Below the pieces are notes generated by a model that saw only the letters and a program-made list of their open reading frames with translations, had not been told where the DNA came from and did no database searches. A program made the position numbers and the translations under genes. From NCBI GenBank assembly GCA_001630475.1, contig KV419445.1, forward strand, positions 50,599 to 114,598: 64,000 bases of DNA. Direction: 5' to 3'. Below are positions 13,976-48,689 of the stretch, piece after piece (the stretch's first letter is position 1; each line of letters begins with the position of its first letter). The stretch is from Sistotremastrum niveocremeum HHB9708 (lineage: Eukaryota > Basidiomycota > Agaricomycetes > Sistotremastrales > Sistotremastraceae).

Positions 13976-13982
13976 AATCGTA

Positions 13983-16900: not shown

Positions 16901-19422
16901 CCGGCGAAGCTGATCCGACTTTGATTGAACTCGTCCAAGAGTTCGTCAACACAAAATTCTTGTTCTGGCTCGAGCTGCTTGGTTTCACAAAGAAGATATA
17001 TTGGGCCGGTGGCGCCATGCGAACAATGGTCAAATGGGCATCTATGGTACGCTCTCCTATCTCCTCCTTTCAAGAGAGCCAGAATTGACATCTCCCGTAG
17101 AGTCATGTTAAATCGCTTATCACCTTTGGAGCAGATGCGCAAAGGTTCATCAGCAACTTTGCCGAGGTGATCGGACGCAGCCCAGCCCACCTCTACATAT
17201 CCTGTCTTCCTTTCGCGCCGGAGTCAAGTCTGGTTTCCCAACAATACCTCCCTCTGTTCAACAATACAATCCGCGCCCAGAGTGGCAAACAACCAATGTG
17301 GAGTGAAGTCATCCGGACCTTTGCAAGTCGTACAGAGTCCGGTGATCAACGCATATATTCAATGAGTTTCTCGCCAGACGGCACTCTATTAATCACTGCC
17401 GCTGAGAAGGCTGTATGCGTATGGGACCCCGAATCTGGCCAGCTCTTGAACACCTTTCCCATTGATTTCCATTCCCCTCAAATTGCTGTTTCTCCTGATG
17501 GAAAATTCTTTGCTGCGACTACATCCTGGAACTCTGTGGCTGTATGCGGTCTCCCTCTGGGCGACATAATCCAAGATGCCACGAAACTTTCCAACACCTC
17601 TATCATCTGTCTTCGATTTTCACCAGACTCCAAAATCCTTTGGATCGGATCGTACCGTGGACATGTACGCACGTGGGAGTTTGAGATGGAAAGATTGGCT
17701 GATCCCATTGAGTTGTGGGAGTCAGTGCCTGAGAGTTCATATCTTGGAGCAATGACAATATCAAGAGATACCTATCATTTCGCCTTTGCCCCACATGGTC
17801 ACTCCATATCCATCTTTGACCGACTGCCGGACAATATTAATATGGAGTGGGTGAATTGTCGTGAGATTCAGGTCAATGACGTATGGGCGCTTGATTTCTC
17901 TTCCGACGGACGATCTCTGGTCTCTGGACATGGATCGGGGTCTGTTTACGTATGGGATGTCGACTCTGCGACTCGGAAAGACACGGGAAGTTCTTCTGCC
18001 AAGCACGAGAGCAGAGTAAACACTGTGTCCTTCTCTGCGAATGATGCGGATTCTTTCATTGTCTCATCTTCGGATCGGAGCGTTCGAATGTGGGATGGAA
18101 CTTCTGGTTCACCAGTGGGAAAACCATTCCAAGGACAAAATGCCTACAGTGGTCTCTTTTCACCCGATGGACGATTCATCGCGACGGGTGCGTTGGATGG
18201 CACCATCTCTCTGTTGGATCGACAAGCAGTGCAGCAACCAATGGCAGAAGAGCAACCAGACAGAGCTTTCCTGACCAGAATTGTTCTTTCACCGGATGAA
18301 AAGTGTCTCTTTGCATCTTCTCCCGACTGCTCAATCCACCGTTTTGCTGTTGAAGATGGAGGACAAACCCGGTCCACCGGATCGCCGATGCGCGGACATA
18401 CCGGCTTGATAGGGGCGCTTGCGATCTCGCTCGATGGAAAATTGTTAGCATCTGGTTCAGCAGACAGGATCATTCGCATCTGGGACGTTGAGGCTAAAGA
18501 TCCACTTCAAAAACCGCAGGTGCTTCATGGACACACAGCTGGGGTCCGGGAGGTGGCTTTTGATCACCGAGGCAAACATCTGGTGTCGTGCAGCAATGAC
18601 TCGACGATACGCGTCTGGGATACAGTGAATTGGACATCGGTGAAGCTCAGAGGACACGATTCGGCAGTGTACTCTGTACAATTTTACGATTACGGAAATT
18701 GCATCATCTCGGGCTCTCGGGACAAGACCCTCCGTATTTGGAATGCAAACAACGGGGAACCTGTTGGCAACCCTTTGAGACTACACAACTCAACTGTCTG
18801 GCGCATAGCTCTGTCTCCAAATGAGAAGCTTGTTGCATCTTCATCAGTTGACGGCGTGATTTGCATATGGGATCTTCAATCTCGTGCCTCTGCACGTTGT
18901 CAGTACATGTATCATGGCACCGGCTACGTTGGCTCAATTGTCTTTACTTCTGACGAGCAGCGACTGCTATCAGCAGCTGATGACCATACTATACGATTAT
19001 GGGATCTCAGCACAGAGGACCCACAACAAGTTGGCAGGCCTTGGGAGGGCCACAATGCAGAAGTTAAAGATGCATTCTTCCTAAACAACGAATCGCAAAT
19101 CATCTCATGCTCAGACGACGGAACCATTCGTATCTGGGACGTCGATGAATCCTCCACCAATCCCAATTCACCAGCCGAACTACAGACATCATTCCCCCGA
19201 ATCGACCGCAATGGATGGGTCCACTCAGACGAAGAAGAGCCAAAGCTACTCTTCTGGCTTCCTCCGCACTATCGGTCGACTTTTGTGTGGGGTCGATGCC
19301 GGAGCTTGGTGAATGCAGAGCCTCTTCAGCTTGATTTCAGTCGATTTGTGCATGGAGAACGATGGGCGGAATGTTGGACAGGTCCCGTATCGGCTTCTTC
19401 TGGACCGGAGGCGTCATCGTGA
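13983..19422 (+). CDS. NLR1: C2-like / helical / NACHT / WD40 STAND receptor, class I
   Basis: Predicted cytosolic NLR-type sensor of 1650 residues. The NTPase switch and propeller suggest ligand-triggered oligomerisation, as in fungal non-self recognition. Ten exons: 13983-14029, 14083-14117, 14170-14323, 14375-14502, 14556-14854, 14909-14959, 15010-15211, 15270-15425, 15488-17046, 17101-19422; every junction keeps phase. Exons 1-4 encode a C2-like fold (RTLRISD, then RFVLLLQCHGQEK, NPVWVQSFTFDDP and DELFGEFQGEVGNLL). Exons 5-8 encode an all-helical region with HPYTSAAWAVISAGFK, resembling Goodbye-type fungal STAND N-termini. Exon 9 carries NACHT with Walker A GFAGSGKSAIA, Walker B LLVIDALDE and sensor RVILTSRP. 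Exon 10 carries about 14 WD40 repeats and the tail LLFWLPPHYR...LDFSRFVHGERW. Intron 2 has a GC donor where NLR3 has GT. The residue after Walker B is Arg (DER), not the Cys (DEC) of the other three. Domain calls are strong; the ligand is unknown. Confidence 0.9.
17101..19422 (+). other. Single-exon WD40 propeller module of NLR1
   Basis: The whole propeller part is one exon, entered through an intron just after the conserved WASM end of the NACHT exon. Blades end in the usual WD-type dipeptides (IWDVE, VWDTV, IWNAN, LWDLS, IWDVD). Diagnostic residues in the last third (SADR, HTAGVREV, NGEPVG, DLQS) match NLR2 rather than the class partner NLR3. Confidence 0.85.
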
Positions 19423-19439
19423 GTGAGACCGGAAGATAC

Positions 19440-20600
19440 TAGTCGGTAGAAGTATAACTCAAATTATGGACGCTAAGGGGCACATGTGTACGTGCTTTAT
19501 TCGGATCTCTAGTATATACACTTGTGAATTATACGTTGTAACGTGGCTTGAGCGAGACATCGACAAGATTTCAGATTGGAACAAGAAAGATAGGCACACG
19601 TACAGTCAACATACCACCATGATCCCCACCGAAGCGTACTTAGCACCCAAAGAGAGCTGCATCGAGTCCTCAAATCTCAACGCTCTCCTTCCATCCGTAT
19701 CCAAAACCCAGACTAGGCCGAGACTTCGCCGTCCAGCTTTCCAACCGATTTCATCGACCCAAGCCATCGACTGGCATCGAAGTTTCCTTGCGAAAGATCG
19801 ACAATTCTTGCTCCACATAGGCCTGTCAAGCTGTCAACTCGTCGATCTAACCGTAGATCCCAGCGTGGATCACTGGCGCTCAAAAAGACGACTGTCAATC
19901 CAAATTCGGCCTCGGGTCATCTCGGATGAGTAAAAATCGGGATATAGGCAGCTCAAGATTCTTTGGGTGAGATAGAACATGGAGAGGAGTAACAAGTGTC
20001 GGAAGCTCAGGAGGCGGCCTTGGCCTTGATGTCGTCGACCTCGCGGGCGGTGACCGGTGATCTCGGGTTCGGAAGCGGAATTGAGATGGAGGCTTGGAAA
20101 TCGAGTTTGACACTTCGAGTCTGAGCACGACGAGAGAAGGAGACAGATCTACGCAGAGACGCACAGGTATCATCAGGAGATTTTCGAACGAGCTGTAATA
20201 GCCTTGCCCACGAAATTTGAAATTTTTTGAGGGCAATATTGGTGTTCATACTCAAAAAAATAAAGAAATAAAGATTAAATACAGTTGTGCATGTGCCACT
20301 GATCTGGATGATACAAGATGTGGTCGTGCAAACAAGGTGTATGATATGAATGGCTATACGGAGGTTCAACTGAAGGAAGCAACTAATGGCGAGCGAAACG
20401 ACTTCGCCAGCTGGGCGCTTAATCGCTCGATATGATCGCTTGATGGGGAAGCAACGAAATGAACGGAGGGAGGGGACGATGTCAAGGCTAGAGAGAAGGA
20501 CATAAGGTCTTGAAAGATCGAGCTTAGTGGTTTGAAACGAGAAAGGAAATCAGGAAGACATACAAATGCGATTCGAAGGCTCTTTCAGTTCGGCGCGGAA
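19440..20600. repeat. NLR-downstream block, copy 1
   Basis: This is the first of four related blocks that follow the NLR stops. Shared landmarks in order are: a 3' UTR-like stretch with ggacg and taagaagggctg-like words (ggacgctaaggggcac here); the series tcctcaaatctc, aacgctctccttcc and tatccaaaaccc; the string actgtcaatccaaattcggc; and the string gagattttcgaacgagctgt. The last two are also found after NLR2. The block may be a decayed minus-strand gene or a conserved 3' element; see the small minus-strand frame at 20007-20249. Confidence 0.6.
20007..20249 (-). other. Small minus-strand open frame inside downstream block 1 (possible gene remnant)
   Basis: An ATG-started frame of 80 codons begins MNTNIALKKFQISWARLLQL and ends DDIKAKAAS. 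The equivalent frame after NLR2 begins at 30573, is nearly identical for about 33 residues and then stops, so the frame is not preserved between copies. After NLR3 the tail reappears as DDIEVKAAS, but the start is lost. The pattern fits a decaying exon of an older gene better than a living small protein. I recognise no family. Confidence 0.25.
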
Positions 20601-22839: not shown

Positions 22840-24396
22840 TTTATTGCATCGACGAGTCTCTCAGCTCAGAAGCTCTGTAAGCTCAAGAACTGCTCCCCCT
22901 TCCCTTATAGGCCGGCTCCTTGGGCATGGCCGCTATCATCTAGTGCCGCCGATTCCGAACCGTTACTTCAGATTTGGAAAGCATTGTCATGGTCTTAGGT
23001 ACAGAATCTCCAGGCTCGTCACCTTCGCTCTCTGCAAAGAGCTCACTTCTTGTAGGTTGATATTTTTTGGAGTGAGCAGTCTAAGGTTCATATTCTCTCC
23101 GAGGCTGATGGCTCGGCATAGCTACATTGAGCATCTTCCTTTCATATCCAACCGCAGGGCACGTATCTCTCCTTTCCGTTGATGAAGACTATTATATTCG
23201 TACAGCTCGCGTTTGATTGATGCTGCGACGTACCCGTCCTAGTTTCTATATGCGGTGGGCGAGAGAGCATGGAGAGAGTTTCGGTTTCGGCTCTGAAGGC
23301 AGTCAAGGCCCAGAGCGGCCCCGATAGATGAATGTCAGTGTTATATGCCGCCAGCGATATCCCTTGCTGATAATCGCATCGTTACCTAGGCTTGTCACCT
23401 ACAGCGGCTGGGTGACAGAATGCCAGGGCTCTCAAAATTACTCGACATCGTTTCAATCTATCAATTTGGCGTCGAAAACCTGAAATTCTTGTCTCCATCG
23501 AGGGCATATCTTTATCAAGACGTTGGCGGACTCCTGCTATACATATCGTCTTTTTTGAACTCCAGAACTCTAATGTGCAACATTAAATTGGAGTTGTCGA
23601 GGTTTAGGGAAGGCCGACTCCGACTCCAGGGCAGCGGGTGCGAACGTTCTCTCGCCACCTCGATGATTTACTCGGAGAGAGCTATTCGACCATGATTATC
23701 TGCCGAGGCGGTTCGGAGTCGTGCGTCGGGTTTGGGGTTTGGTGAAGATGTGGCGATTTTTGAGACTCTGTCTCGTACGGAGTATTATAGTATGAATCCT
23801 GAGGGCTACTGAATGCCATAATGTACAGTACACCAGACAGCTCAGCAATAAATATGACGCTGTCGAATAAATTCATGATCTTCGCGCATATATGCCGACT
23901 GAAAGCGGAGTTTCAAACTCTTTCGTCCGTGCGTCCACCTTCCAGATTCGCTGGTGCTGTTACCGTTGGATGACCTCAGCTCGAATAGCGAGCAGCAAGT
24001 CTTTTTCGGCCTCTGTGAGTGTTCAAAAATCGCTGGTCGCATCCAGATTACCAATTCCTAAAGGCTGCTACACGTTCTTGCCTCCAACTCAGTCGACCAT
24101 ATTCGCCGTTCGTCCACCATTCCATCTCCTCGCATCAAGACCTCAAGTGGTATCAGGACATGGGAGATGTGAACGCTCTTCCCTTTCAGGACGCCCCCCC
24201 TGATTGCGTATATGCTGTGCATGTCCAACGCATCACCCCTATCAAAGTACGCTTGCACTCGTCGACAACGACCGACAGAGACCCAGTTGACTCCTCCTCC
24301 AAGGCTGTCAGACCATCAGACTGAACGCTCAGCACCTGAGATCTTCATTGTTGGCCGAAGAGATGACGCGCGCGGGCAAGGAAACAGCTAGTGCAG
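22840..24396 (+). repeat. Upstream flank of NLR2, duplicated upstream of NLR4
   Basis: The stretch before NLR2 matches the stretch before NLR4 (about 41990-43335) in order and spacing. Examples are the word tcgtcaccttcgct near 23017 and 42078, tactcgacatcgtttcaa against tactcggcatcgtttcaa near 23440 and 42380, and tcgcgcatatatgccgactg at 23882 and 42834. The promoter therefore travelled with the gene. Parts next to 23880-24200 are the best conserved and may contain regulatory sequence or an untranslated leader. Confidence 0.65.
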
Positions 24397-27300
24397 ATGA
24401 CGACGAGTTCAGTCACCTCATCTATCGCTTATGAGGCATTTCACTCAATCGACGATAGTCACCCTCAATCCCGTGTCCACACACAGCTTGAAATATCCAG
24501 TGAGTCTCCACTTCAAACGCGAATATTCCGATCTCCCATCCATTCGTCCAGATATCTATGGGACCGTCCCGGCACAGCCATGGCGCAAGTACTTGCCGTA
24601 CCGACCTCACTTTTATTTGACAATCGAATGCGGCGGGTCCAAGAGCGGGATGAAATCCGAGGCATTTCGATCTGAAACTTCGGCCCGGGGAAGAAATCCG
24701 CGATGGGACATCTTTCATACATTGTAAGATCGTTCATGCTTCTCAAGCCACTCGTTCTGACCATTGTGATAGCGATGACCCCTCAGGCATTCTCCGACTG
24801 CAGCTCTTCGAGGCACACGCATCATCCAAAGATGAGTTCATCGGCGAGATTAAAGGAAAGCTCAAAAATATGGTGCCTGGGTCAAAGAGTACGTCGTCAT
24901 CAGATTGTCGATAGTCTGCCCTGGTGCTCATACTCTGCAATTCTTCAGTCACAATCAAAGAACGAAAACTCTCAAATTATAATTCACCGTCGCGTGATAC
25001 TATGGCTCCTACACTCACTTTCAGCTTGTTGCTTGACACACCTTACAACATATTGAGAAGTCAATTGAATGATACCGATGCTGCGGTGGACAACCTGAAA
25101 CCCGCTTCTCGAAAGATTACCTTGTTCCTCCGCTCATTCGGAGTCTTTATGGACGTTGCAGAAGCCATCGCAGAGGTAGTTCATCGGATTGTTGGACTTG
25201 CGATTAGATCGTTGAGCATCCGTGTCAGATCAACCCTTATGCGAAAGCTGCGGTGACGGTCGTCGTTACTGGCTGCAAGGTGAGCGTGAAGCTGTCAGAC
25301 TTGATCAACGCTGACAAACGGTAAAGATGCTCAAGAACCAGGCCCAGCTTGACACCGATATGCATACCCTTTTTGACACGATGAAGACCGTGTTTGACTT
25401 GATTTCCGCATCCCAACACCTTTCAAATGTGTATCAACAGAAAATAGTAATGCAGCTGGTGCAGCAGACGGTCGAATGTGGGTACTTCATACACGCTTAT
25501 GCAAAGAATAAGAAGTTTTGTGGGTCCTTTATAATCCCCTTGAGGGCCATCGTTGATGGGATCTTTATAGCTACCCGGACACTCAACAATGCTTTCAGCG
25601 GAGCGTCGGACAAAATCAAGAACGTTAATGCAAACTTCATCAAGCTCAGGCAAGCATTCCAAGAGCAAGCCTTTCTGCAGACTGAGCTTGTGGCAATACG
25701 TGTCGAGATAGTTGTGCAAGATATAGGTCGGTTCTCTTGATCCTTTGAGAGATCTTGTCTGATCCTCCTGCAGCTCGCAAGGTTGACCTACTGGACATGC
25801 ACTACGCCAAGGGCGCGACGTTCATACCCGAGAAAGGGTGTCTTCCGGGAACACGGATCAAGCTGCTGGAACAGATCAGTCAGACGCTTATGCGATGGAC
25901 GGACCCAGATTTGAATGGAGCTTCCCTGCTCTGGTTGAAAGGGCCATCTGGATCGGGGAAGTCTGCTGTTTCTCACACCCTTGCAAGTCTCTTCGCAAGG
26001 GGAAAACGGCTTGGGTCTTCCTTCATCTTCGACCAGTCCGACGAGAACATCCGTCTTCCACAAGCTCTCTTCCGCACGATTGCTCTCGATTTGGCTGATC
26101 TTTTGCCAGAATGGAAGGACGCGCTGTGGACGATTATCCGTGACAATCGTGCCCTCCGGTACACAAAATCGGTCAAAGTTCAATTTGAGCAGCTGATTCT
26201 CGAGCCATCAAAGAGAATCAGATTGATCGGGCCCATCTTGATCGTCATCGATGCCCTGGATGAATGCGCCGGCGATTCGAGCGGGCGTCAAGAACTTCTT
26301 TCCATTCTCTCCTCTCGACTCAACGAACTTCCATCCAACTTCCATATATTCCTGACTTCGCGGCCCGAAAACGACATAGTGCGAGCGTTTAGGCATTGCC
26401 CTTATGTCACTCGCCTAGAAGTGGGAGGCGATACAGATGATCCGAGTGATATCGTTACTGTCTGCCGACGTCGCCTCGTCGATGACCATCCAAACCTAGC
26501 GAAGCGTTTGGACGAGGTGCCAGACAAGCACGATTGGCTTGGATCACTGTTCAAGCAATCAAAGGGCCTCTTCCAATGGGCTACTGCCTCATGCAATTTT
26601 GTCGTCGAGCCAGAATCAGAAGACGAGCAATTTGAACGCTATCAATTAGTCGTTGCGCGGTCTTCATCGATTGACGATGGCACTGCGCTCTCTGAACCCA
26701 ACTCTGACCCCTTGGGCGAGCTGTACAGCCTGATATTGACCACCGTCTTTCGCTCCCCTCACAAGAGTCACTTATTCGCTGACTTCCACACAATTATCGG
26801 GCGTGTGCTTATGGTCTTCAGACCCTTGTCCATCTCTGCACTCAATGCTCTTTGTATTCCAGGAGAAAACGAAGAAGTCCTGAAGTCTGTTCTCATGGGG
26901 TTGAGTTCAGTGCTTACGGGTGTTTCAGCGGAATCCAAGGATCCGGTCCGTGTTTTCCACACATCATTCCGCGACTTCCTCTTTGATGAACGACGGAGCG
27001 GTGTCTTCTACATCGACCCCTCCATACCCCATGTGGCTCTTGCCATTGCTTGTTTGCAAGTGATGAACACCGAGCTTAAATTCAACATGTGCAATCTGCC
27101 AACGTCTTATACTGTCCAAAGTCCGTCAAAAGACGTATTGCATTGTTGTGTCTCGGAGCAGTTACTTTATGCCTCGGAATTCTGGTCGCATCATTTGGCC
27201 GAAACCATAGGGGAAGCCGATCAGAGTCTGATTGAGCTCATCCAAGAATTCGTCAACACGAAATTCCTGTTCTGGCTTGAGCTACTTGGCTTGACCCAGA

Positions 27301-29718
27301 AGATATTTTGGGCCGGCAGCGCAATGAGAACAATGGTCAAGTGGGCATCTACGGTAAGTCTGCCTATCTTTCTCTCTTCTGAGCAAGAATTAACATATTT
27401 CGTAGTGTCGCATTGAATCGCTTGTGGATTTTGGAACAGACGCCGAAATGTTCATCAGCAACTTCGCCGAGGTGATCGCACGTAGCCCACCGCACCTCTA
27501 CATATCCGTTCTCCCTTTCGCACCAGAGAAAAGTCTGGTTTCCCAACAATACCTCTCCCTATTCGGTAATACGATACGCGCCCAGAGTGGCAAACAACAA
27601 GTGTGGAGTGAAGTTATCCGGTCCTTTGCAAGTCGTACAGAGTCGGGGAACCAACGCATATATTCAATGATTTTCTCGCCGGATGGCACATTCCTAATCA
27701 CTGCCGCGGAGAAGTCTATATGCATATGGGACCCCGAGTCTGGCCAACTCTTGAATTCCTTCCCTATTGATTTCAGTAGCCCCAAGGTCATTGCTTCACC
27801 CGACGGAAAGTTTCTTGCTGCAACCACATCACAGAACTCGGTGGTTGTACGGGGTCTCCCATCGTGTGATGTAATTAGAAACGCCAAGAAAGTTTCCAAC
27901 ACCTATATCATCTGCATTCAATTTTCACCAGACTCCCAAATCCTCTGGATCGGATCGGACGATGGATATGTACGCATGTGGGAACTTGAGACGGGAAGAT
28001 TGACTGATCCCATTGAGTTTTGGGATTCAGTGCCTGAGACCAAGTATGTGGGGAGGCTGACGATATCAAGAGATACCCGCCATCTCGCCTTTGCTCCATT
28101 TGGTCACTCCATCTCCATCTTTGACCGACGGGAAGACAGCATGGAGTGGGTGAACCGGCGTGAGATCGAGACCAATGATGTACTGGCGCTTGATTTCTCT
28201 CCCGATGGACGGTCTCTGGTCTCTGGTCATTTATCGGGATCTGTTCACCTATGGGATGTGGAATCCGCAACTCGGAAGGACACGGGAAGTTCTTCTGCCA
28301 AGCACGAGAGCCCGGTGCTCACGGTGTCCTTCTCTCCGAACGTTGCGGATCCTGTCATTGTCTCATCTTCGGATCGGAGTGTTCGATTGTGGGATGGAGC
28401 CTCAGGTTCACCCGTGGGAAAACCTGTTGAGGGACAAAATGGCATATGCAGTGTTCTCTTTTCCCCCGATGGACAGTTTATCGCGACGGGCGCCTGGGAT
28501 GGCACCATATCTCTTTTGGATCGACAAGCAGTGGAGCACCCAATGGCAGAAGAGCAGCCAGACGGAGCTTTCCTGAGCAGAATTGCTCTTTCACCGGATG
28601 AAAAGTGTCTTTTTGCATCTTCTCCCAACTACTCGATCCATCGTTTTACTGTTGAGGATGGTGCGCGAATCCGATCCACTGGGTCGCCGATGTGCGGACA
28701 TACCGGCACAATCTTGGCGCTTGCGATCTCGCTCGATGGAAAATTGTTAGCATCTGGTTCAGCAGACAGAACCATATGTATCTGGGACGTCGAGGCTGAA
28801 GATCCACCCCACAAACCGCGGGTGCTTCATGGCCACACCGCGGGGGTGCGGGAGGTGGTTTTTGATAAGCAAGGAAAACATCTGGTGTCATGCAGCGACG
28901 ACTCGACAATACGCGTCTGGGATATAGTGGATTGGACCTCGGTGGAGCTCAGAGGACACAAATTGGAAGTGTATTCTGTGCAATTCTACGACAACGGAAA
29001 TTCCATTGTCTCAGGCTCTCAGGACAGGACCATCCGTATCTGGAATGCAAACACCGGGGAACCTATTGGCGACCCTTTGAGACTACACAACACATATGTC
29101 TTTCGCATAGCCCTGTCCCCAAGTGAAGAACTTGTTGCATCTTCGTCAATTGACGGTGTGGTCTGCATATGGGATCTTCAATCTTGTGGCTCTGCACATC
29201 GTCAGTACATCCATCATGGCACCGGCTACGTTCGCTCGATTGTCTTCACTTCTGACGAGCAGCATCTGCTATCTGCAGCTGAAGACCATACTATACGATT
29301 ATGGGATCTTAGCGCAGAAGAACCACGTCAAGTTGGCCGGCCATGGGAAGGCCACAATTCAGAAGTTAAAAATGCATTCTTCCTAAACAACGAATCACAA
29401 ATAATTTCATCCTCAGACGACGGGACCATTCGTGTCTGGGACGTCAATGAATCCGCCACCAATCCCAATTCACCCGCCGAACTACAGATATCATTCCCCC
29501 GAATCGACTACGACGGATGGGTCCACTCCGACGAAGAAGAGCCCAAACTGCTCTTCTGGCTCCCTCCGCACTATCGGTGGAATTTTGTGTGGGGACGATG
29601 CCGGAGCTTGGTGAATGCAGAGCCTCTTCAGCTTGATTTTAGTCGATTTGTGCATGGAGAACGATGGGTGGAGTGTTGGACAGGTCCCGTATCGGCTTCT
29701 TCTGGACCCGATAAATAA
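24397..29718 (+). CDS. NLR2: C2-like / helical / NACHT / WD40 STAND receptor, class II
   Basis: STAND receptor of about 1611 residues with the ten-exon plan of NLR1: 24397-24411, 24487-24499, 24552-24723, 24773-24888, 24949-25175, 25229-25279, 25327-25519, 25571-25726, 25774-27353, 27406-29718. Its N-terminal exons are of a different class, shared with NLR4. The C2-like part has YRPHFYLTIECGG, RGRNPRWDIFHTFDDP and KDEFIGEIKGKL. The helical part has FLRSFGVFMDVAEAIAE and INPYAKAAVTVVVTGCK. NACHT Walker A is GPSGSGKSAVSHT and Walker B LIVIDALDECAGD. A spacer between NACHT and the winged/helical part is longer than in class I. The WD exon closely resembles that of NLR1 in its last third. The start is uncertain: the ATG at 24397 gives consistent phase with a GTCACC donor, while an upstream ATG at 24363 would need other splicing. 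The very short exons 1 and 2 rest on comparison with NLR4. Confidence 0.87.
27406..29718 (+). other. Single-exon WD40 propeller module of NLR2
   Basis: This is one exon starting CRIESLVDFGTD after the conserved intron, with about 14 blades. The last third carries the NLR1-type markers SADR, HTAGVREV, TGEPIG and DLQS. A middle stretch (REDSMEWVNRREIE, ALDFSPDGRSLVSGHL) is instead close to NLR3. The tail ends SSGPDK and stop, and that ending plus the following bases are shared with NLR4. Confidence 0.85.
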
Positions 29719-29734
29719 TTGTGAGCGAGACCAG

Positions 29735-36400: not shown

Positions 36401-38902
36401 GCCGATCCAACTTTGATTGAACTCGTCCAAGAATTTATCGACATGAAATTTCTGTTCTGGCTTGAGCTGCTTGGCTTGACGCAGAAGATCTATTGGGCAG
36501 GTGGTGCGATGCGGACGCTGGTCAATTGGGCATCTTCGGTACGCTTTCCGATCTCTTTGGTTTGGGGGAGCCAGAATTAACATGATCTCTGCTAGTATCA
36601 TATTGACTCCCTTGTGCATTTCGGAACAGATGCGGAAAGATTCATCAGCAACTTTGCTGAAGTGATTGCACGCAGCCCACCGCACCTCTACATATCCGTT
36701 CTCCCCTTCGCGCCAGAGTCAAGTGTGGTTTCCCAACAATACCTCTCCCTATTCGGTAATACGATAGGCGCCCAGAGTGGCAAACAGCAAGTGTGGAGTG
36801 AAGTCGTCCGGACCTTTGCAAGTCGTACAGAGTCGGGTGCTCAATGCATACGGTCAATGGCTTTCTCGCCAGATGGCACTCTATTAATCACTGCCGCGGA
36901 GAAGTCTATATGCATATGGGACCCCGAGTCTGGCCAACTCTTGAATTCCTTCCCTATTGATTTGATTGGCCCCAAGGTCGTTGTTTCACCCGACGGCAAG
37001 TTTCTTGCTGCGACCACTTCATGGAACTCTGTGGTTGTACAAGGACTCCCTTTGGGTGATGTGCTTAAAAACGCCAAGTCATCTTTCTATCGTGATATCA
37101 TATGCCTTCAGTTTTCACCTGACTCCAAAATCCTCTGGATCGGACTGAACGATGGATGTTTATGCACCTGGGAACTTGAGACGGAAAGATTGACTGATCC
37201 GATTGAGTTGTGGGATTCGGTGCCTGAGACTCAGTATCGTGGAGTAATGACGATATCAAGGGATACCCGTCATCTCGCCTTTGCCCCAGATGGTCACTCC
37301 ATCTCCATCTTTGACCGACGCGAAGACAGCATGGAGTGGGTGAACCGTCGTGAGATTGAGATCAATGACGTATTGGCACTTGATTTCTCTCCCGACGGAC
37401 GATCTCTGGTCTCTGGTCATTTATTGGGATCTGTTCACGTTTGGGATGTGGAATCTGCAACTCGGAAGGACACGGGGAGTTCTTCTGCCAAGCACAGCAG
37501 CGGAGTAACTACTGTGTCCTTCTCTCCGAATGTTGCAGATCCTGTCATTGTCTCGTGCGCGAATTGGGATGTTCGATTGTCGGATGGGGCTTCCGGTTCT
37601 TCTGTGAGAAAAACTGTCAAGGGACAAAATATCCTATACAGTGTTCTCTTTTCCCCCGATGGACGATTCATCATAACGGGAGCATGGGATGGCACCATCT
37701 CTCTATTGGACCGACAAGCAGTGGAGCAACCAATGGCAGAAGAACAGGCAGACAGAGCTTTCCTGTCCAGAATTGCTCTTTCACGGGATGAAAAGTCTCT
37801 CTGTGCATCTTCTGCTGACTGCTCGATCCACCGGTTTACCGTTGAGGATGGTGCGCAAATCCGATCCACCGGGTCGCCGATGCGCGGACATATCAGCACA
37901 ATCTCGGCACTTGCGATCTCGCCTGATGGAAAATTGTTAGCATCTGGTTCAGCAGACAATACCGTTCGTATTTGGGGTCTTGAGCCTGAAGATCCACTCC
38001 ACGAACCGCGGATACTTGATGGTCACACAAACTGGGTCCGGGAGGTGGCTTTTGACCACCAAGGAGAACATTTGGTGTCATGCAGCGATGATTACACCAT
38101 ACGCGTCTGGGATACAGCGAATTGGACATCGGCTGAGCTCAGAGGGCATGATTTGGCGGTGTTCACGGCGCAATTCTACAATAACAAAAATTGCATCATA
38201 TCAGGCTCTGGCGACGAGACCATCCGCATTTGGAATGTAAACAGCGGGCAATCTATTGGCAACCCACTGCGATTACACAACTCAAGTCTCTGGCGCATAG
38301 CTCTGTCTCCGAGTGAAGAGCTGGTTGCATCATCGTTTGTTGATGGCACGATTTTAGTTTGGGATCTGGAATCTCGCGGGGCTGCACGATGTCAGTACAT
38401 GCGACACGGCATCCAGTTCGTTGAATCTTTGCTCTTTACTTTTAATGAGCAGCATTTGCTATCGGCTAGCGATGACCATGCTGTCCGTTTGTGGGATCTC
38501 AGCGCAGAGGAGCCGAAACAAGAAGGCAGGCCTTGGGAAGGGCATAGTGCGGCCCTCAATGATGCCTTCTTTTTGAATATCCAGTCACAGCTCATCTCAT
38601 CAGCAGATGACGGAGTCATTCGTATCTGGGAAGCCAATGAGTCCTCCACCAATCCCCATTCACCAGCTGAACTACAGACATCATTCCCCCGAATCGACCG
38701 CGACGGATGGGTCCACTCCGACGAAGAAGAGCCCAAGCTGCTCTTTTGGCTTCCTCCGCACTATAGGTCGAGTTTCGTATGGGGTCGATGTCAAAGCTTG
38801 GTTGGATCTGAGCCTCTCCAACTTGATTTCAGTCGATTTGTGCATGGAGATCAATGGGCAGAATGTTGGACTGCTTCTTCTTCACCCGATACGTCATCGT
38901 AA
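33450..38902 (+). CDS. NLR3: C2-like / helical / NACHT / WD40 STAND receptor, class I
   Basis: Class-I receptor of 1658 residues and paralogue of NLR1. Exons: 33450-33496, 33540-33580, 33631-33784, 33836-33963, 34019-34317, 34372-34422, 34473-34674, 34729-34884, 34947-36538, 36596-38902. Exons 3-8 have exactly the NLR1 lengths (154, 128, 299, 51, 202, 156), which supports both models. The start MANAEAEHGAVVQNER aligns with NLR1. C2-like strands include RFILVLRCHGQEK and NPVWIQSFTFDDPEATD; the helical region has HPYTSAAWAVISAGFKVLQA. NACHT Walker A is GVAGSGKSAIA and Walker B LIVIDALDECGDD. A Ser-rich loop (HSSSPSAIEQLSSSSSAVKR) precedes the P-loop and is absent from NLR1. In the WD exon one blade is unusual (CANWDVRLSDGASGSSVRKT), losing the WD-type Trp found in the others (RLWDGASGSPVGK). 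The C-terminal tail CWTASSSPDTSS differs from the other three genes. Confidence 0.9.
36596..38902 (+). other. Single-exon WD40 propeller module of NLR3
   Basis: One exon beginning YHIDSLVHFGTDAERF. Markers in the last third (SADNTV, PLHEP, HTNWVREVAFDHQG, SGQSIGNPL, DLESRG) match NLR4, although the upstream exons belong to the NLR1 class. The middle part has the NLR2-type stretch REDSMEWVNRREIE. Confidence 0.85.
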
Positions 38903-38919
38903 TTGTAAGCGCGATAGGA

Positions 38920-40120
38920 GGATATGTAGGTAGAACGAGTATCATTCAAATGATGGACGATAAGAAGGGCTGTTTCATAGTTTTATTCAGCTTTATATTC
39001 CATATATTCGTGGAATACAATTAGTAAAATGCATCTAGCGAATAAGTGGATGTTGGGTTAAACTCAAGAACGATGGGTCATCCGTACACAGATAACATAC
39101 CGTCATGATCCCACGTGCACCGTACCGCACTCAGCCATCCACAGAGCAAGGCCTGCCTCAAATCCTTAAATCTCGACGCTCTCCTTCCTCCTGTATCCAA
39201 GATCTCAGATCAGGCCAAGACTTCGCATCCCCATCCAGCTTTCCAACCGATTCCTTCATTCCAATCCACCGAGTGGCCCAAAAGTTTCTGTGAGAAGGAT
39301 TGATAGTCTTAACTCCATCTAGGCCTGTCAAGCTGTCGAACCGTCGACCGAACCGTCGATCCTAGCGTAGATCACTAGCACTCAAAAAGACGACTGTCAA
39401 TCCAAATTCGGCCTCGGGTCATCTCGGATGAGTAAAAGACGGGATATAAGCTGCTCAATATTCTTTAATGTGAGATGGGTCATGGAGAGGAGTTGCAGGT
39501 GTCGGAAGTTCAGGAGGCGGCTTTGACTTCGATGTCGTCGACGTCGTGGTCGGTGACCTCAGGTTCGGAATCGGCATTGGGCTGAAGGATTGACAATGCG
39601 GGTCTGACTCTCTGAACACGACGAGAGAAGAGCATGAAACCACGAAGAGACGCAGAGGAATCACAAGGCAATATTTGAGTCAAAGACAATATCCTTGTCC
39701 ACAAAAATCAAATCTTTGAGGACGATGTTGATGTTCAACCGAAAATAAAATTATAATAGGCTCAATACTCGTATCCAACGCCGACGTAAGTACTAGTGGA
39801 CATGATAGTTCATACAAGATGGAGAAATTCAATGAACATAGGGAAACTTCTTGGAATGAAACCGAAAGGGGCAACTGAAGACGACCCATACGACTTTGTA
39901 TGGCTGAGCGCTTAATCGCTCGACAAGATTACTCGGCGCATAATGAAGGAGCAGCGGAAGGCATGGCGGAAGGGAACGATGTTGAGTTTGAAGAGGAGAA
40001 GCATAAGGTCCTGAGAGATCGAAGTCACTAATTCGAAACGAGGAACAAATATAGGAAGGCGTACGAGAGTAATTCAGCATCTGACACCGAGGCGGAGGAC
40101 ACAGTTCATTCCGTCGCATT
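38920..40120. repeat. NLR-downstream block, copy 3
   Basis: This block follows NLR3 directly and keeps the landmark order of the other copies: ggacgataagaagggctgtt, the tcctccttcctcctgtatcc-like series and actgtcaatccaaattcggc, then the minus-strand coding-like tail DDIEVKAAS. The start of the small frame seen in copies 1 and 2 is destroyed here. Confidence 0.6.
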
Positions 40121-40486
40121 TCCGGCTCCAAGAAAAGAGAACAGAACCATTTTTGAGAGATTGAGACTGCGCTATCGTGCACATGCGCTTGCACTCGAAA
40201 CTGAAAGTGCCTTGAGGTCGTCCCAAGGAAATGCTGCGATAGACATCCGTTCTAGTCGAATGCGGACCAAAGGGGGTGCAGGTCACGAAAGATTGGAGTC
40301 ACATATAATATGCTTCAGAACTTGCCGCAGGATGTCAAGTTGTATATCACGAGCCACCTCGTGTCACCAGCGCGACGAGTCGCCGGCAGCCAAGGATATT
40401 CGCCGACCAGTCGGGGAATTTGAGTTCTGGTTGCTTTCTAAATCGATTCTGATGGAGCGCTTGATTGAAATGCTCTGATAGGTAGC

Positions 40487-41989: not shown

Positions 41990-43335
41990 CAAAGGGTACG
42001 TAGTGCTGCCGATTCTGAAACCGTTCCTTCAGATTGGGAACGCTTTGTCATGGTATTAGGTAAGGATTCTCCAAACTCGTCACCTTCGCTATCTCCAACC
42101 AGCCCACTTCTTTCAGGTCGATATTTCTAGAAGATAGTCTATGGCTCATAATCTCTTCGGAATTGGTTGGGCTCGCATACCACGGATTCCGGGCATCTTT
42201 CTCCCAGATTTGACCGTAGGGTATTTATTTCTCCTTTCTTTTGATGACGACGCTGATGTTCGTACAGATAGTGTTTGATCGAAGCTGCGACTTAGCCGTC
42301 ATGGGTTTTTATGTGCCGTATGCGAGAGGGCATTGAGAAAGTTTTAAGTCTCGGATTTGAAGTTAGTCAAGGGCCAAAATTACTCGGCATCGTTTCAAAT
42401 CTATCAATGCGGCGCCGAGGACTAGAAAGTCTCGTGTTATGTCCATTGAGAGCAGATCCTTGACAACACGTCGGAGCACTCTCCCCTAGCCCGTCTTCAT
42501 CGAACTCTAGAACTGCGAGGCGCAGCCTGAAATCCAACTTATCGATCTTTAGGACAGGATGGGACCGGTTCCAGGAACGCGTGGGGCGAACGTTCTTTCG
42601 CCGTCTCGATGATATATTCACACAGGGCCATCCGACTACATTTACCTGCCGAGGCGGCTCGTGGTAGTGCATCGGGATTGGGGTTTGGAGGACATATATG
42701 GATCTTGGCTCTGTCTCGTACAGAGTATTATCGTATGGACTCTAAACGCTACTGAATGCCTATGACATACTGTATAATGCAGCAGACTGGTAACGAATAA
42801 ATATGACGCTGTCGAAGAAATTCATGGTCTTCGCGCATATATGCCGACTGAAGGCGGAGTTTCAAACTATCTCGTCCGTGCGTCCACCTTCCAGATTCGC
42901 TGGTGCTGCAACAGTGCTGTTACCGTTAGATGACCTCAGCTGGAACAGCAAGCAGCATGTCTTGTTCACTCTCTGTGAGTATCTGAAAATCGCTGGCTGT
43001 TTGCAGATAACTAATTTTGAAGGGTGCTGCGCGTTCTTACCTCCGACTCAGACGACCATACTCGCCGCTCGTTCACGAGTGCATCTCCTCGCGTCGCGCC
43101 TCTCAAGTGATCATGGGAGATGTGAACGCTCTTCCATGTAGGGAGGTCACTCAACCATGTATGCTGAGCATATTCTCCGCATCACTCCTATCAAACTTCG
43201 CTTCTACTCCTCAAAAGCGGACGAGTGCTTGCACTTGAGTCGTCCTCCCTTCCACGGTCGTTGCAATCAACACTCAGCATTCAGCATTACCTTCGTCGAC
43301 TGCGCAAATAACGCCCCCGAGCATGGAGAACGACA
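41990..43335 (+). repeat. Upstream flank of NLR4, copy of the NLR2 upstream flank
   Basis: Collinear with 22840-24396; see shared words there. An extra short insertion, gctgcaacagtgctgttacc, at about 42905-42925 is present here and reduced in the NLR2 copy, so small indels have accumulated since duplication. Confidence 0.65.
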
Positions 43336-46300
43336 ATGCAGATAATGATGAGTTCAGTTACCGCATCTATTGCGCATGTCGCAGTTTACTGAATCATCTA
43401 TAGGCATCCTCAAACTCTTGTTCAGAGACAACTTGAGATCTCCAGTAGGCCTCCAACAATCATTGCATCTCGTCTCCGATCCAACCTCCACGCTCAGATA
43501 TCCATGGGATCGTGCCGGTGAAGCAATGGCGCAAGTACTTGCCGTATCGCCCTCATTTCTATCTAACAATGGAATGTGACGGAGTGAAAGGGGAGGGGAA
43601 GCTACAGCCGTTTCGATCAAACACGTCGGCGAGGGGAAGGAACCCGGCCTGGGATTTTGTTCATCTATTGTGAAGTCTTTCGTACTCTGCCCTTGTCCGT
43701 CACTGAAAGTTCGTGCAGTGATGATCCCGCTGGAGATCTATGCATTAAGCTATTGAGGGAGCGCCTATTTTCAAAAGACAGCTTCGTCGGGGAGATTAAG
43801 ACAGAGCTGGGCAAGTTGGTGTTGGGCTCTCCCCGTAGGTCGGTCTACTGTCGGGTCTGAAGTTTCGCTAAGAGTCCTAGCCGTATTATATGAAGCGCCG
43901 CTCTCTAACTTGAATCGCTCCTTCAATGAAGGCTCGCCCACACTCTTCTTCAGCTTACGGCTCGACACTCCCCACAATGTTATGAGCGGGGCACTCAATG
44001 GTGCGGCTACCGCATTGGAAGTCATGAAACCCGCTCCTGAAAGTGTCGCGGGGTTCCTACGGTTGTTTGGGACCTTTATGGACGTCGTCGGAACGCTTGC
44101 CGAAGTACGTGACTGAGGTTTAGCTCATATATGCGCCATTCTGACAGTCGGAATGAGATCAACCCATACGCACAAGCCGTTAAGGAGCTTGTCGTAATCG
44201 GTTGCAAGGTAGGCATAGTTATGGTTGGCTGGTTTGATGTATGCTCACTAAACTTATAGATGTTTCAAGATCAAGAACAACTCGATGAAGATATTCGTTC
44301 CCTTCTATTCGTCATGGGGAATGTGTTTGAGCTGGTGTCATCGTCAAGAGAGCTATCGCATGAATACCAGAGGAAGATCGCGTCGCAGCTAGTGCAGCAG
44401 ACCACCGAGTGTGGCTATTTCATTCAAGGTTATGGAAATCAAAAGCAGTTTTGTAGGCCGCTCTCTTTGTTCATGGGTGGGCTGTCTCGATGACGACGCA
44501 TAGTGACCCGGATGATCACCAGTTCGTCGAGACGCGTAGCAGATGAGATCAAGAGATTCAACGCGAACTTTATCAGGCTGAGGGAAGCCTTTCGCGAGCA
44601 AACGGTTGTGCAAATCGAACTTGCAGTGTTGCAGGTCGCGTCAACGGTGCAAGATATCGGTTAGTCCTCTTGTCGCACACGGAGACCCACCTGACCCTCG
44701 GTTAGTGCACAGCATTGACTTATTGGACATGCGATACGGCAAAGGAGCCAGCTTTATTCCCGAGAAAGGCTGTCTCCCTGGAACGCGGACTAGACTACTG
44801 GTCGAGATTACATGCTCACTCATGCGTTCAGCAAAAGTGGGACCTAAAGGTGCTTCTCTACTGTGGCTGAAAGGACCGGCTGGATCTGGGAAATCCGCAA
44901 TCGCTCACACCATTGCGCAGCTGTTTAAAGATGGAAAACGGCTCGGGTCCTCATTCATATTTGACAGATCCGATGAAAACATCCGTGTTCCCGAAGCACT
45001 CTTCTGTACGATTTCCCAGGATCTCGCCGCGCTGATCCCCGAGTGGAAAGAGGCGCTCTGGAACATCATCCGCGATGATCGTGCCCTCCGTAGCACGAAA
45101 TCAGTGAGGATTCAGTTTGAAAGGCTGATTCTTGAGCCTGCCAAACATATTGAATTCTTTGGGCCCATATTGATCGTCATCGACGCACTCGACGAGTGTA
45201 TCGGCGATTTCGAGTCGCGTAGAGAACTCCACGCCATCCTTTCGTCTCGTCTCCACGAGCTTCCTTCCAGCTTCCACATATTCATGACCTCCCGACCTAA
45301 CGATGAAATTGAGCAAGCATTTGACTCCTCACCCCAGGTCTCCTGCTTGGAAGTGGGAGGCGTCCTGGCTGATCCGACTGAAGATATTGTCGCCTTTTAT
45401 AAACAACGTCTCGTTGACGACCATCCGGATCTGGCGGCCCGTCTAGATGCCATCCCAGACAAACACAACTGGCTCCGACCACTAATTGAGAAGTCCCAGG
45501 GTCTCTTTCAGTGGGCTATCACTGCATGCCGGTTCATTCTTGAGCCACAGCTGTTGGAAGAACGTGTCGCACGATTCGGGATTTTGCAGAAACAAAGGAC
45601 ATCAAACGTAGCGAAGACTGCCAGTCCAACATACGAGCCCTCGAAGCACAACCCATCCCCTCTAAACGAACTCTACAGACAGATACTTAATTCGATCTTT
45701 GCATCGGCCGATAAAGAACACCTAGTGACTATATTCCCTGCTCTGCTCGGGCGTGTTCTTGCGGTGTACACGCCTCTGCCCGTGGATGCTCTCGATGCTC
45801 TCCGTGATCTGAACGAGGATCATGGATTGCTGAAGTCTGTGGTTGAACTGTTGGGCTCGGTTTTAACGGGAGTCGGCGCCGGCTCGCAGGATCCAGTTCG
45901 CGTCTTCCACACCTCTTTTCGAGATTTCCTTGTCAATAAGGAATGCAGCGGTGTGTTCTACATAGACCCCTCCTCGCAGCATGTGGCCCTCGCCAGCGCC
46001 TGTCTTAGAGTGTTGAACTCTGAGCTCAAGTTCAATATCGTTGACCTGCCAACATCATACGCATCCACAAATATGTTGAACGCAAAAGAACGCATGCGTG
46101 ATCGGGTCTCGGCCCAGCTGCTGTACGCGTCGGACTTTTGGTCGAATCATTTGGCCGAAACCACTGACGAAGCCTATCCCATGTTGATCGAACTTGTCCA
46201 AGAGTTCGTCAACACGAAATTTCTGTTTTGGCTTGAATTGCTTGGTTTGACACAGAAGATATATTGGGCAGGTGGCGCGATGCGAACGATGGTCAAATGG

Positions 46301-48674
46301 GCATCAATGGTAAGCCCTCCTATCATACAAACGAAAGAGCAAGAATTAACATCTCCGGTAGTGTCATGTTGAATCTCTGGTGGATTTTGGAACAGATGCG
46401 GAAAGATTCATCAGCAACTTTGCTGAAGTAATCGCACGCAGCCCACCCCACCTCTACATATCGATACTCCCTCTCGCGCCAGAAACAAGTTTAGTGTCCA
46501 AACAATACCTCCCCCTATTCAACAATACGATACGCGCCCAGACTGGCAAACAGCGAGTCTGGAGTGAAGTTATCAGGACCTTTGCAAATCGTGCAGACTC
46601 GGGTGATCAGCGCATATATTCAATAGCTTTCTCGCCCGATGGCACTCTATTAATCGCTGCCGTTGAGAAGTCTATATGCATATGGGATCCGGATTCTGGC
46701 CAGCTCCTGGACGCTTTCGCTATTGATTTCCAGTTCCCTCGAATTGCGGTTTCTCCTGATGGAAAGCTCCTTGCGGCGACCACATCATGGAACTCAGTGG
46801 TTGTACGCGGTCTTCCTTTGTGTGATATAATCAGCAACGCCGAGGAAGTTTCCAACAGACAGATCATATACCTTCAGTTCTCAGCTGATTCCAAAATCCT
46901 CTGGATCGGGTTGGACAATGGATATGTATGCACGTGGGAAACGGGGATGGGCAGACTGACTGATCCCATTGAGTTGTGGGATTCAGTGCCTGAAACTCAA
47001 GATTTCGACACGATGACAATATCAAGAGATACTCGTCATCTCGCCTTTGCCCCAGACGGTCATTCCATATCTATGTTTGATCGACTCGAAGACACCATGA
47101 AGTGGGTGAATCGTCGTGAGATTGAGGCCAATGACGTATGGGCGCCTTACTTCTTTCCCGACGGACGATCACTGGTCTCTGGTCATCAATCGGGATCTGT
47201 TCACATTTGGGATGTTGAATCCGCAACTCGGAAGGACACGAAATGTTCTTCTGCCAAGCATGAGAGCGGTGTGCGAGCGGTATCTTTTTCTCCGAACGTT
47301 GCGGATTCTATCATTGTCTCAGCTTCCGATCTGACTATCCGATTGTGGGATGGAGCCTCCGGTTCACCTGTGGGAAAACCTGTCAAGAGACAAAACCCCA
47401 TATTGAGTGCTCTCTTTTCCCCCAATGCAAGATTCATCGCGACGGGCGCCTATGATGGCACCATATCTTTGTTGGATCGACAAGCTGTGGAGCACCCAAT
47501 AGCAGAAGGACAGGCAGACAGAGCTTTGCTGACCAGGACTGTTCTTTCACGGGATGAGAAGCGTCTCTTTGCTTCTTCTGCTGATTGCTCGATCCACCGT
47601 TTTACCATTGAGGATGATGCGCAAATCCGATCAGTCGCGTCACCGATGAGCGGACATACCGGCCTGATCTTGGCGCATGCGATTTCGCCTAATGGGAAGT
47701 TGTTAGCATCTGGTTCAGCTGACAATACTGTTTGTATCTGGGACGTTGGGCCTGAAAATCCACTCCACGAACCGCTAATACTCCATGGTCACACAAACTG
47801 GGTCCGGGAGGTGGCTTTTGATCACCAAGGAACACATCTGGTGTCATGCGGCGACGACTTGACCCTACGCGTCTGGGATACAGTGACTTGGACATCAGTG
47901 GAGCTCAGAGGGCACAATTCAGCAGTGTACTCCGTGCAATTCTACAATGACGGGCATTGCATCATCTCGGGCTCTCGGGACAGGACCATCCGTATCTGGA
48001 ATGCAGAAAGCGGGCAATCCATCGGCAACCCTCTGGGATTACACAACTCAGCTGTCTGGCGCATAGCTCTTACCCCAAGCGAAGAACTCGTCGCATCTTC
48101 GTCGGTCGACGGTGTAATTTGCATATGGGATCTTGAATCTCGTGGCTCTGCACGTCGTCAGTACATCCATCACGGCATCGATTACGTTCGCTCGCTCGTC
48201 TTCACTTCCGATCAGCAGCATTTGCTATCTGCAGCTGATGACCATACTATACGATTGTGGGATCTCAGCACAGATGAATCACAACAAGTTGGCGGGCCTT
48301 GGGAGGGCCACAGTGCAAAAGTTCAAACTGCAGTCTTCCTAAACAATGAATCACAAATTATCTCGTCATCATCCGATGGAGTCATTCGTATCTGGGACGT
48401 CGACGAATGCTCCACCAATCCCGATGCACCAGCTGAACTGCAAACATCATTCCCCCGAATCGACCGCGACGGATGGGTGCATTCTGACGAAGAAGAGCCC
48501 AAATTACTCTTCTGGCTTCCTCCGCATTATCGGTCGACTTTTGTGTGGGGAAGATGCCGGAGTTTGGTGAATGCAGAGCCTCTTCAGCTTGATTTCAGTC
48601 GATTTGTGCATGGAGAACGATGGGCGGAATGTTGGACAGGTCCCGTATCGGCTTCTTCTGGACCCGATAAATAA
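43336..48674 (+). CDS. NLR4: C2-like / helical / NACHT / WD40 STAND receptor, class II
   Basis: Class-II receptor of about 1628 residues, paralogue of NLR2. Exons: 43336-43356, 43426-43444, 43498-43669, 43719-43834, 43863-44104, 44158-44208, 44260-44452, 44504-44659, 44706-46309, 46362-48674. Exons 3, 4, 6, 7 and 8 (172, 116, 51, 193, 156 bases) have the NLR2 lengths. Intron 4 is only 28 bases if the AG at 43861-43862 is used, which is suspiciously short, so that junction may differ. C2-like strands include YRPHFYLTMECDG and GRNPAWDFVH; the helical part has FLRLFGTFMDVVGTLAE and INPYAQAVKELVVIGCK. NACHT has Walker A GPAGSGKSAIAHT and Walker B LIVIDALDECIGD. Tail and stop context (SSGPDK) match NLR2. 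ATG alternatives at 43323 and 43345 exist; 43336 keeps phase. Confidence 0.86.
46362..48674 (+). other. Single-exon WD40 propeller module of NLR4
   Basis: One exon beginning CHVESLVDFGTDAERF. The last third carries SADNTV, PLHEP, HTNWVREVAFDHQG and SGQSIGNPL, shared with NLR3. The far C-terminus (ECWTGPVSASSGPDK) is shared with NLR2, so the exon is a patchwork. Confidence 0.85.
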
Positions 48675-48689
48675 TTGTGAGCGAGACCA

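Follow-up and report, generated by a model that had tools for sequence, protein, structure and literature searches.

In Podospora anserina, the HNWD/NWD genes (het-d, het-e, het-r) are reported to exchange WD repeats across the NACHT clades N-I and N-II. Two repeats are described as identical between het-e and nwd6 despite high divergence of the remaining domains; the NWD proteins have been proposed to form a double propeller, and their surface positions diversify (PMC1805685, PMC2873952, PMC12222747). In zebrafish, the recognition domain of the NLR-B30.2 genes is reported to have been converted across NACHT groups, and the authors consider that conversion tracts not covering the full recognition exon could bring different variants together (Howe 2016, PMC4852459). 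Here we describe a related pattern in a stretch of 64,000 nucleotides (hereafter the window; positions 50,599 to 114,598 of contig KV419445.1, assembly GCA_001630475.1) of the basidiomycete Sistotremastrum niveocremeum HHB9708, whose genome comprises 34.7 Mb in 111 contigs. The window harbours four tandem, plus-strand receptor genes, NLR1 to NLR4 (N1 to N4 for short), each laid out as 5' exons, a NACHT exon and a last exon coding for WD40 repeats. We propose that recurrent recombination at ectopic sites, most probably as gene conversion between neighbouring genes, overwrote the C-terminal halves of these genes across two receptor classes, while their front halves remained class-specific. We put the probability of this reading at roughly 0.86.

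Like the Podospora HNWD/NWD proteins as described, N1-N4 are fungal NACHT-WD40 receptors with WD sequence exchanged between separate NACHT clades. However, the Podospora HNWD repeats are reported to be >80-85% identical within a gene, to be reshuffled as units and to vary in number, whereas those of N1-N4 have a median identity of 22% within a gene, align as the same 14 and are exchanged in register, together with the linker and 3' flank. N1-N4 thus have no high internal repeat conservation (maximum 0.48), and their eight N-terminal reading-frame stretches (unjoined exon pieces) gave no Pfam match to the HET domain. The likeness to the published zebrafish case lies in distinct NACHT groups with a C-terminal recognition domain converted across them; the zebrafish genes differ in being animal, in numbering nearly 400, and in carrying B30.2, a recognition fold unrelated to WD40. 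Conversion in clusters was also raised as a possibility in a survey of Sordariales (PMC12258605). In a literature search of titles and abstracts, with most subscription papers outside its scope, no in-register half-gene exchange in basidiomycete NACHT-WD genes was found among the matches listed. The WD repeats of Podospora and the NLR-B30.2 genes of zebrafish therefore already exemplify the principle, and what is new is its in-register, whole-module form with a recurrent junction.

Receptor array and exchanged C-terminal block

N1-N4 are C2-like/NACHT/WD40 receptors of two old classes, which alternate along the array in the order A, B, A, B. Their parts, all on the plus strand, are as follows.

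13744-15480, +: NLR1 (class A) 5' region, with 5' exons and C2-like stretch (tblastx N1-N3 matches; Pfam C2, E=6e-4)
15490-17046, +: NLR1 NACHT exon (class A; Pfam NPHP3_N/NACHT; start set by the reading frame, end by the GT splice site)
16837-16863, +: homology boundary in NLR1, residue 455 (450-458), motif LLYASEFW (change-point; start of blastn match)
17101-19422, +: NLR1 WD exon, with helices, 14 WD repeats and C-terminal cap (AlphaFold model; repeat anchors)
22957-25755, +: NLR2 (class B) 5' region, C2-like (tblastx N2-N4 matches; Pfam C2, E=0.11, sub-cutoff)
25782-27353, +: NLR2 NACHT exon (class B; Pfam; exon end taken from the alignment)
27147-30856, +: NLR2 exchanged block, 82% identical to NLR1 16842-20521 (blastn)
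27406-29718, +: NLR2 WD exon (translation, alignment)
33199-34913, +: NLR3 (class A) 5' region (tblastx)
34955-36538, +: NLR3 NACHT exon (class A; Pfam, alignment)
36336-40125, +: NLR3 exchanged block, 79% identical to NLR2 27151-30964 (blastn)
36596-38902, +: NLR3 WD exon (translation, alignment)
42018-44606, +: NLR4 (class B) 5' region (tblastx; Pfam C2, E=0.22, sub-cutoff)
44711-46309, +: NLR4 NACHT exon (class B; Pfam, alignment)
46107-49412, +: NLR4 exchanged block, 79% identical to NLR3 36336-39657 (blastn)
46362-48674, +: NLR4 WD exon (translation, alignment)

The front halves follow the two classes. By blastn self-comparison, the 5' regions and NACHT exons of N1-N3 and N2-N4 match at 73-79%; the only cross-class DNA match in this half is a 45-bp piece, and between-class protein identity is about 43-54%. 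In the NACHT exon 5' of the boundary, 164 of the 215 DNA sites that split the genes two against two (2-2 sites) group NLR1 with NLR3 and NLR2 with NLR4 (13|24; the other groupings are written likewise). These sites are unclustered (p=0.38), and maximum likelihood favours the same grouping by a log-likelihood difference of 148. Blastn, tblastx, NACHT sites and tree thus all recover the pairing that the first-pass annotation, made from the letters alone, had given for the front half. Within class A, N1 and N3 abruptly grow closer from residue ~256 of the NACHT exon onward (window 16258-16842 in NLR1 and its NLR3 counterpart), synonymous divergence (dS) falling from 1.92 to 0.76; this stretch is a probable same-class tract.

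Pfam NACHT and NPHP3_N scored above cutoff in all four NACHT-exon frames, as did WD40 in all four genes. C2 scores lie below the cutoff of 22 bits (NLR1 20.4, NLR2 13.2, NLR4 12.2), with no match in the NLR3 piece; C2 N-termini are described as known only from a few basidiomycetes (PMC4986451). The earlier view of a class-specific signalling half therefore applies to its divergence and not to two signalling outputs, both classes giving weak, sub-cutoff C2-like matches.

Close to the end of the NACHT exon (NLR1 ~16852), class-specific sequence gives way sharply to exchanged sequence. Long cross-class blastn matches are found only from N1 16842, N2 27147, N3 36336 and N4 46107 onward. The cross-class block is 79-82% identical, starts within the NACHT exon, ~200 bp short of its end, and extends about 0.7-1.2 kb past the stop codons; N1-N2 identity is 84-85% at 20115-20385, in the NLR1 3' flank. 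A change-point test on the aligned proteins placed the switch at residue 455 (NLR1 NACHT-exon numbering) in all four cross-class pairs, with likelihood-ratio statistics of 91-147 (147 for N1/N2), and the same-class pair N2-N4 changes too, at residue 454. The boundary does not coincide with the NACHT/WD intron. In the predicted structure (mean predicted local distance difference test, pLDDT, 86.9), it falls at the start of helix 454-468, the first of three helices leading to the WD exon. Judged from these alignments, the exchanged unit is the whole C-terminal half, namely the last ~65 NACHT-exon residues and the WD exon, along with some 0.7-1.2 kb of 3' flank.

Silent divergence drops across this boundary. 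Applying a zebrafish-type criterion, dS in the NACHT region upstream is at least 2.2 or saturated for the four cross-class pairs, against 0.35-0.54 in the sensor-coding WD exon for all six pairs. Upstream values are also high within classes, and they fall as well, from 1.24 to 0.47 for N1-N3 and from 2.57 to 0.44 for N2-N4. The drop indicates that the whole C-terminal half, with linker helices, WD repeats and 3' flank, was exchanged between old paralogues. Thus, the genes are old and their C-terminal halves younger, and the main effect on these halves is homogenisation, with reshuffling as a finer pattern within it. The alternating order of the array would suit a single founding cross-class WD swap followed by duplication of the A-B pair as a two-gene unit, with no later exchange. 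We consider this improbable, since such a history predicts 13|24 across the WD half, which is rejected by two WD windows and by repeats 8-14 (see below), and the same-class dS drops across the boundary too.

The window contains another tandem pair, at 54274-57983, where the minus-strand open reading frames 54274-55638 and 56432-57751 share two DNA blocks of 73-74% identity.

Mosaic genealogies in the WD exon and 3' flank

The WD exon holds 122 2-2 DNA sites, of which 48 back 12|34, 32 back 13|24 and 42 back 14|23. They are clustered, with 64 adjacent matches against 40.7 expected (permutation, p=5e-5). None of 900 simulated single-tree WD alignments attained the observed adjacency, and three attained the observed pairwise homoplasy index (PHI), all of them on the 12|34 tree; the gap-free codon alignment has 120 informative sites, compared with simulated means of 73-82. 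Taken by WD repeat, 1-5 favour 14|23, 6-7 favour 13|24, 8-10 favour 12|34 and 11-14 are mixed. A three-state topology hidden Markov model (HMM), fitted post hoc, gave 13|24 up to NLR1 16898 and then the following segments, in NLR1 coordinates.

17187-17885, +: mosaic segment 14|23 (NLR2 and NLR3 alike), WD repeats 1-5 (topology HMM)
17952-18237, +: mosaic segment 13|24, WD repeats 6-7 (topology HMM; 7/7 third-position 2-2 sites)
18252-19176, +: mosaic segment 12|34 (NLR1 with NLR2, NLR3 with NLR4), starting at the presumed propeller 1/2 boundary (topology HMM)
19245-19437, +: mosaic segment 13|24 at the C-terminus, with an N1-N4 tract and NLR3 apart (HMM; GENECONV-type test)
19458-20493, +: NLR1 3' flank in the exchanged block, with 12|34, 13|24 and 12|34 segments (HMM)

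The 14|23 segment is interrupted by a 12|34 patch (17597-17668), and the long 12|34 segment holds a weak 13|24 patch (18816-18898). The C-terminal segment includes a 101-bp exact N1-N4 match at 19306; its tree alone is not significant. Third codon positions follow the same succession, the counts for 12|34, 13|24 and 14|23 being 5/2/15 in repeats 1-5, 0/7/0 in repeats 6-7 and 5/1/1 in repeats 8-10. Alone they are clustered (PHI p=2e-4, 60 sites), and conflicting sites are clustered in the presumed noncoding 3' flank too (90 sites, p=0.006).

Approximately unbiased (AU) tests against 13|24 were performed on 13 windows past the boundary. Four of the ten that were fully evaluated reject it at 0.05, with uncorrected p values of 0.004 (window 17368-17667, favouring 14|23), 0.002 (favouring 12|34), 0.018 and 0.026; correction for 13 windows leaves a single one significant at 0.05, the 12|34 window 18265-18564. 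When repeats 8-14 are tested together, 13|24 is rejected (AU p=0.003), as it is for repeats 1-5 (p=0.005), which were picked after the segments were known. With a GENECONV-type test of our own implementation, distinct from the GENECONV program, globally significant WD-exon tracts were detected for N2-N3 (17395-17514, 0/2000 permutations), N1-N4 (19248-19371, p=0.007) and N1-N2 (p=0.027), and none in the other three of the six pairs. When mismatches were treated more strictly, the N2-N3 (p=0.001) and N1-N4 (p=0.02) tracts remained significant and that of N1-N2 did not (p=0.12).

The first-pass annotation had read the WD exons as mosaics in conflict with the NACHT grouping, from words shared by the proteins. 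All of these are found in the translated WD exons: SADR, HTAGVREV, GEP and DLQS in NLR1 and NLR2; SADNTV, PLHEP, HTNWVREVAFDHQG and SGQSIGNPL in NLR3 and NLR4; and REDSMEWVNRREIE in NLR2 and NLR3. At the C-terminus, NLR2 and NLR4 agree and NLR3 stands apart, as it had noted. The 42 amino-acid 2-2 sites alone (22/6/14) are not significantly clustered (p=0.11), whereas the DNA sites are, so the proof of the mosaic lies in the DNA. Two points needed amending: the exchange reaches beyond the WD exon on both sides, and the 12|34 region, placed in the last third of the exon, is real and corresponds to repeats 8-10, at the start of the presumed second propeller.

These tracts also bear on the type of recombination. 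Unequal crossing-over between chromosomes or haplotypes could have moved WD halves, giving chimeras along with gain and loss of copies, and the continuation of the block about 0.7-1.2 kb beyond the stop codons would suit it. However, homology stops again in the spacers, making the block two-ended, whereas the entire spacer downstream would accompany a simple crossover, unless that spacer has been replaced since. Furthermore, short tracts inside the WD exon have other genealogies on both sides. Crossing-over thus appears unlikely, if far from negligible, and conversion between neighbours better fits the short internal tracts and the homology ending in the spacers. The genealogical conflict, the boundary with its recurrence, the fall in silent divergence and the concentration of variability at presumed top-face positions are observed directly; we infer conversion rather than repeated crossing-over, and likewise a role in recognition and any benefit.

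Under this reading, ectopic events started near the conserved LLYASxFW motif at the head of the helical bundle, with tracts running through the WD40 repeats and ending in the 3' flank, and the N-terminal exons and the greater part of the NACHT exon remained class-specific. Additional, smaller tracts gave the NACHT half, the first seven and the second seven WD repeats separate genealogies, each gene being therefore a distinct combination of the three.

WD repeats and the presumed ligand-binding surface

An AlphaFold model of the NLR1 WD exon (mean pLDDT 84.3) comprises helices and strands, and 14 WD repeats anchored by sequence motifs are aligned in all four genes; we presume that they form two seven-bladed propellers. 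Foldseek matched the model to Apaf-1 and other double propellers (3j2t, 3shf, 3sfz, 5juy, 8y6p), its best hit being 2ymu, a designed-like repetitive propeller. In Apaf-1, helices and then WD40 propellers come after a nucleotide-binding domain, and N1-N4 share this order with Apaf-1/Dark apoptosome proteins. Nevertheless, the global template-modelling (TM) scores are modest (query-normalised, 0.36-0.48), and we know of no exchange between Apaf-1 paralogues.

Over 27 anchored positions, same-numbered repeats of different genes have a median identity of 0.74 (minimum 0.52, n=84), against 0.22 for different repeats within a gene (n=364). This matches the earlier observation that blades resemble their same-numbered counterparts more than their neighbours. 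By this comparison, blades exchange in register, with their number and order kept. Of the two processes proposed in the first-pass annotation, gene conversion between paralogues is accordingly well supported, whereas unequal exchange between repeats, as in Podospora HNWD, is unsupported because the blades keep register and number. The repeat 7/8 boundary (NLR1 18241) sits in the gap between HMM segments at 18237-18252; we treat this as one coincidence and give it no weight.

Variability is concentrated at positions R1-2, R1 and D-1, which we take to be the top-face hot spots of WD40 propellers. These presumed top-face positions (three per repeat, n=42) are variable in 86% of cases, compared with 41% of 557 others, and have on average 2.36 distinct residues against 1.49 elsewhere (permutation p=5e-5). 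The process would recombine parts of the presumed ligand-binding surface with blade order preserved. The ratio of non-synonymous to synonymous divergence (dN/dS) at these codons is 0.89 (0.52-1.55), against 0.30 elsewhere, so that a value above 1 was not borne out; the point estimates by position are 1.75 at R1-2 and 0.37 at D-1.

Convergent selection could also be envisaged, the shared WD-surface residues having arisen in parallel in receptor pairs that see the same ligands. In repeats 8-10, amino-acid changes make up many of the 12|34 differences, variability is concentrated at the presumed top-face positions, and strictly synonymous sites back the mosaic weakly, all of which would be expected in that case. 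Yet whole codons are shared, including silent positions (CCC/GCT, CTC/CCT, GTG/ATA), third positions cluster, and the 3' flank is in conflict as well; nor would convergence lower dS across a whole half. The permutation, simulation and third-codon tests support recombination, and convergence is very improbable.

Other receptor clusters of the genome

Trees were built with 20 of 27 family genes collected from this genome (L023 and L026-L031 were omitted, and L026-L031 were examined separately). On contig C43, the WD exon of L011 is nested with those of L012 and L014 (support 96 and 100), while its NACHT domain groups elsewhere, and L016 and L017 are distant in NACHT and close in WD. The change-points of these two cases, at residues 462 (443-471) and 457 (450-488), overlap that of the window (450-458). 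From NACHT to WD, dS falls from saturation to 0.54 for L011-L014 and from 1.98 to 0.40 for L016-L017; it does not fall in the control pairs L012-L014 (0.74/0.78), L020-L021 (1.13/1.23) and L010-L011 (saturated in both). In the quartet L011/L012/L014/L016, 115 of 163 NACHT sites back L012+L014, unclustered (p=0.43) and with the alternatives rejected, whereas the WD-exon sites (103/60/37) are clustered (p=2e-4) and L011+L014 is preferred.

Further signs come from a third subfamily, C11/C23, where the class tree is no longer best in the last three WD windows, one of which rejects it (p=0.027), and cross-class identity in the late WD exon reaches 88-95% in places. L029 and L030, of different NACHT classes, share an 83% block from the start of the WD exon to beyond the stop. 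These two genes lie ~19 kb apart (G000 C11), and their 3' flanks hold an exact match of at least 400 bp, ~0.5 kb downstream, which suggests a recent exchange or duplication. In a comparison of 190 gene pairs, whose WD/NACHT distance ratios have a median of 1.39, the seven pairs with the lowest ratios (0.17-0.34) all consist of genes within 35 kb of each other. Closeness is associated with WD sharing (15 near against 175 far pairs, p=1e-4, pairs not being independent), although near pairs without WD sharing include L010-L011, L012-L014 and L020-L021. With related exchange in other receptor clusters of the genome, the sensor half behaves as a swappable cassette.

Change-points of the opposite direction, with NACHT closer than the C-terminal half, were found for L020/L021 (residue 397) and L013/L019 (residue 403), and L012/L014 has one at residue 188. 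We rejected these as swaps and read them instead as a faster WD half.

L014 (G000 C43, ~201 kb) has one in-frame TAG in its NACHT exon, while the WD exon keeps an open frame and is involved in the exchange. It is possibly a pseudogene still donating or receiving WD sequence. In L012 and L017, NACHT and WD lie in a single open frame of 1366 and 1331 codons, respectively, the NACHT-WD intron having been lost or else staying in frame with no stop codon.

Misassembly is a common hazard with tandem paralogues, and chimeric contigs joined at stretches common to the paralogues might mimic exchange. This is scarcely credible here: exact matches between the four copies do not exceed 101 bp, the tracts have diverged, an artefact would require several switches, two other subfamilies show related patterns, and the window contains no N.

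Several observations nevertheless weigh against recurrent conversion. Within the array, repeats 11-14 are mixed (third positions 6/6/2 for 12|34, 13|24 and 14|23), repeats 1-7 as a whole do not reject 13|24 at 0.05 (p=0.08), and the NACHT tree is not rejected for either seven-repeat set when third positions are used alone. The 32 strictly synonymous sites give a non-significant adjacency (p=0.14) and PHI p values of 0.005, 0.033 and 0.07 as windows grow; they are too few to decide between recombination and convergence. The HMM segments were defined post hoc, with low posteriors for several of the small ones, no very recent tract occurs in the window (longest exact match, 101 bp), and dN/dS at the presumed top-face codons is as given above. 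Elsewhere, the WD exon of the C43 quartet leaves the NACHT tree at p=0.054, with none of six windows rejecting that tree. In C11/C23, where NACHT classes are clear, the class tree holds for the WD exon overall and in windows 1-3 of six, and the start of the L029-L030 block coincides with that of the WD exon rather than with the LLYAS motif. Leaving out the window genes makes the neighbour effect borderline (9 pairs, p=0.059), and all of the evidence comes from one genome.

The diversification of fungal receptors has so far been described through near-identical WD repeats reshuffled as units. In N1-N4, ordinary diverged propellers would instead be exchanged in register as half-genes, which would provide old receptor classes with a common sensor pool. 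Since the exchanged half carries the presumed ligand-binding surface, the process would couple sensor variants to either class. The change-points at the same motif in three cases of one genome make a specific chimera test possible. A stronger version, which we regard as quite unlikely, is that linker helices and two propellers are a true cassette, swapped as such and joined recurrently at LLYASxFW, that selection favours cross-class homogenisation, and that propellers 1 and 2 are separate sub-cassettes; if so, the A and B receptors of the array would stay matched and sense the same ligands as functional pairs. Lastly, the close parallel to zebrafish NLR-B30.2 suggests that the combination of a private oligomerising half with a shared sensor half arose in distant lineages.

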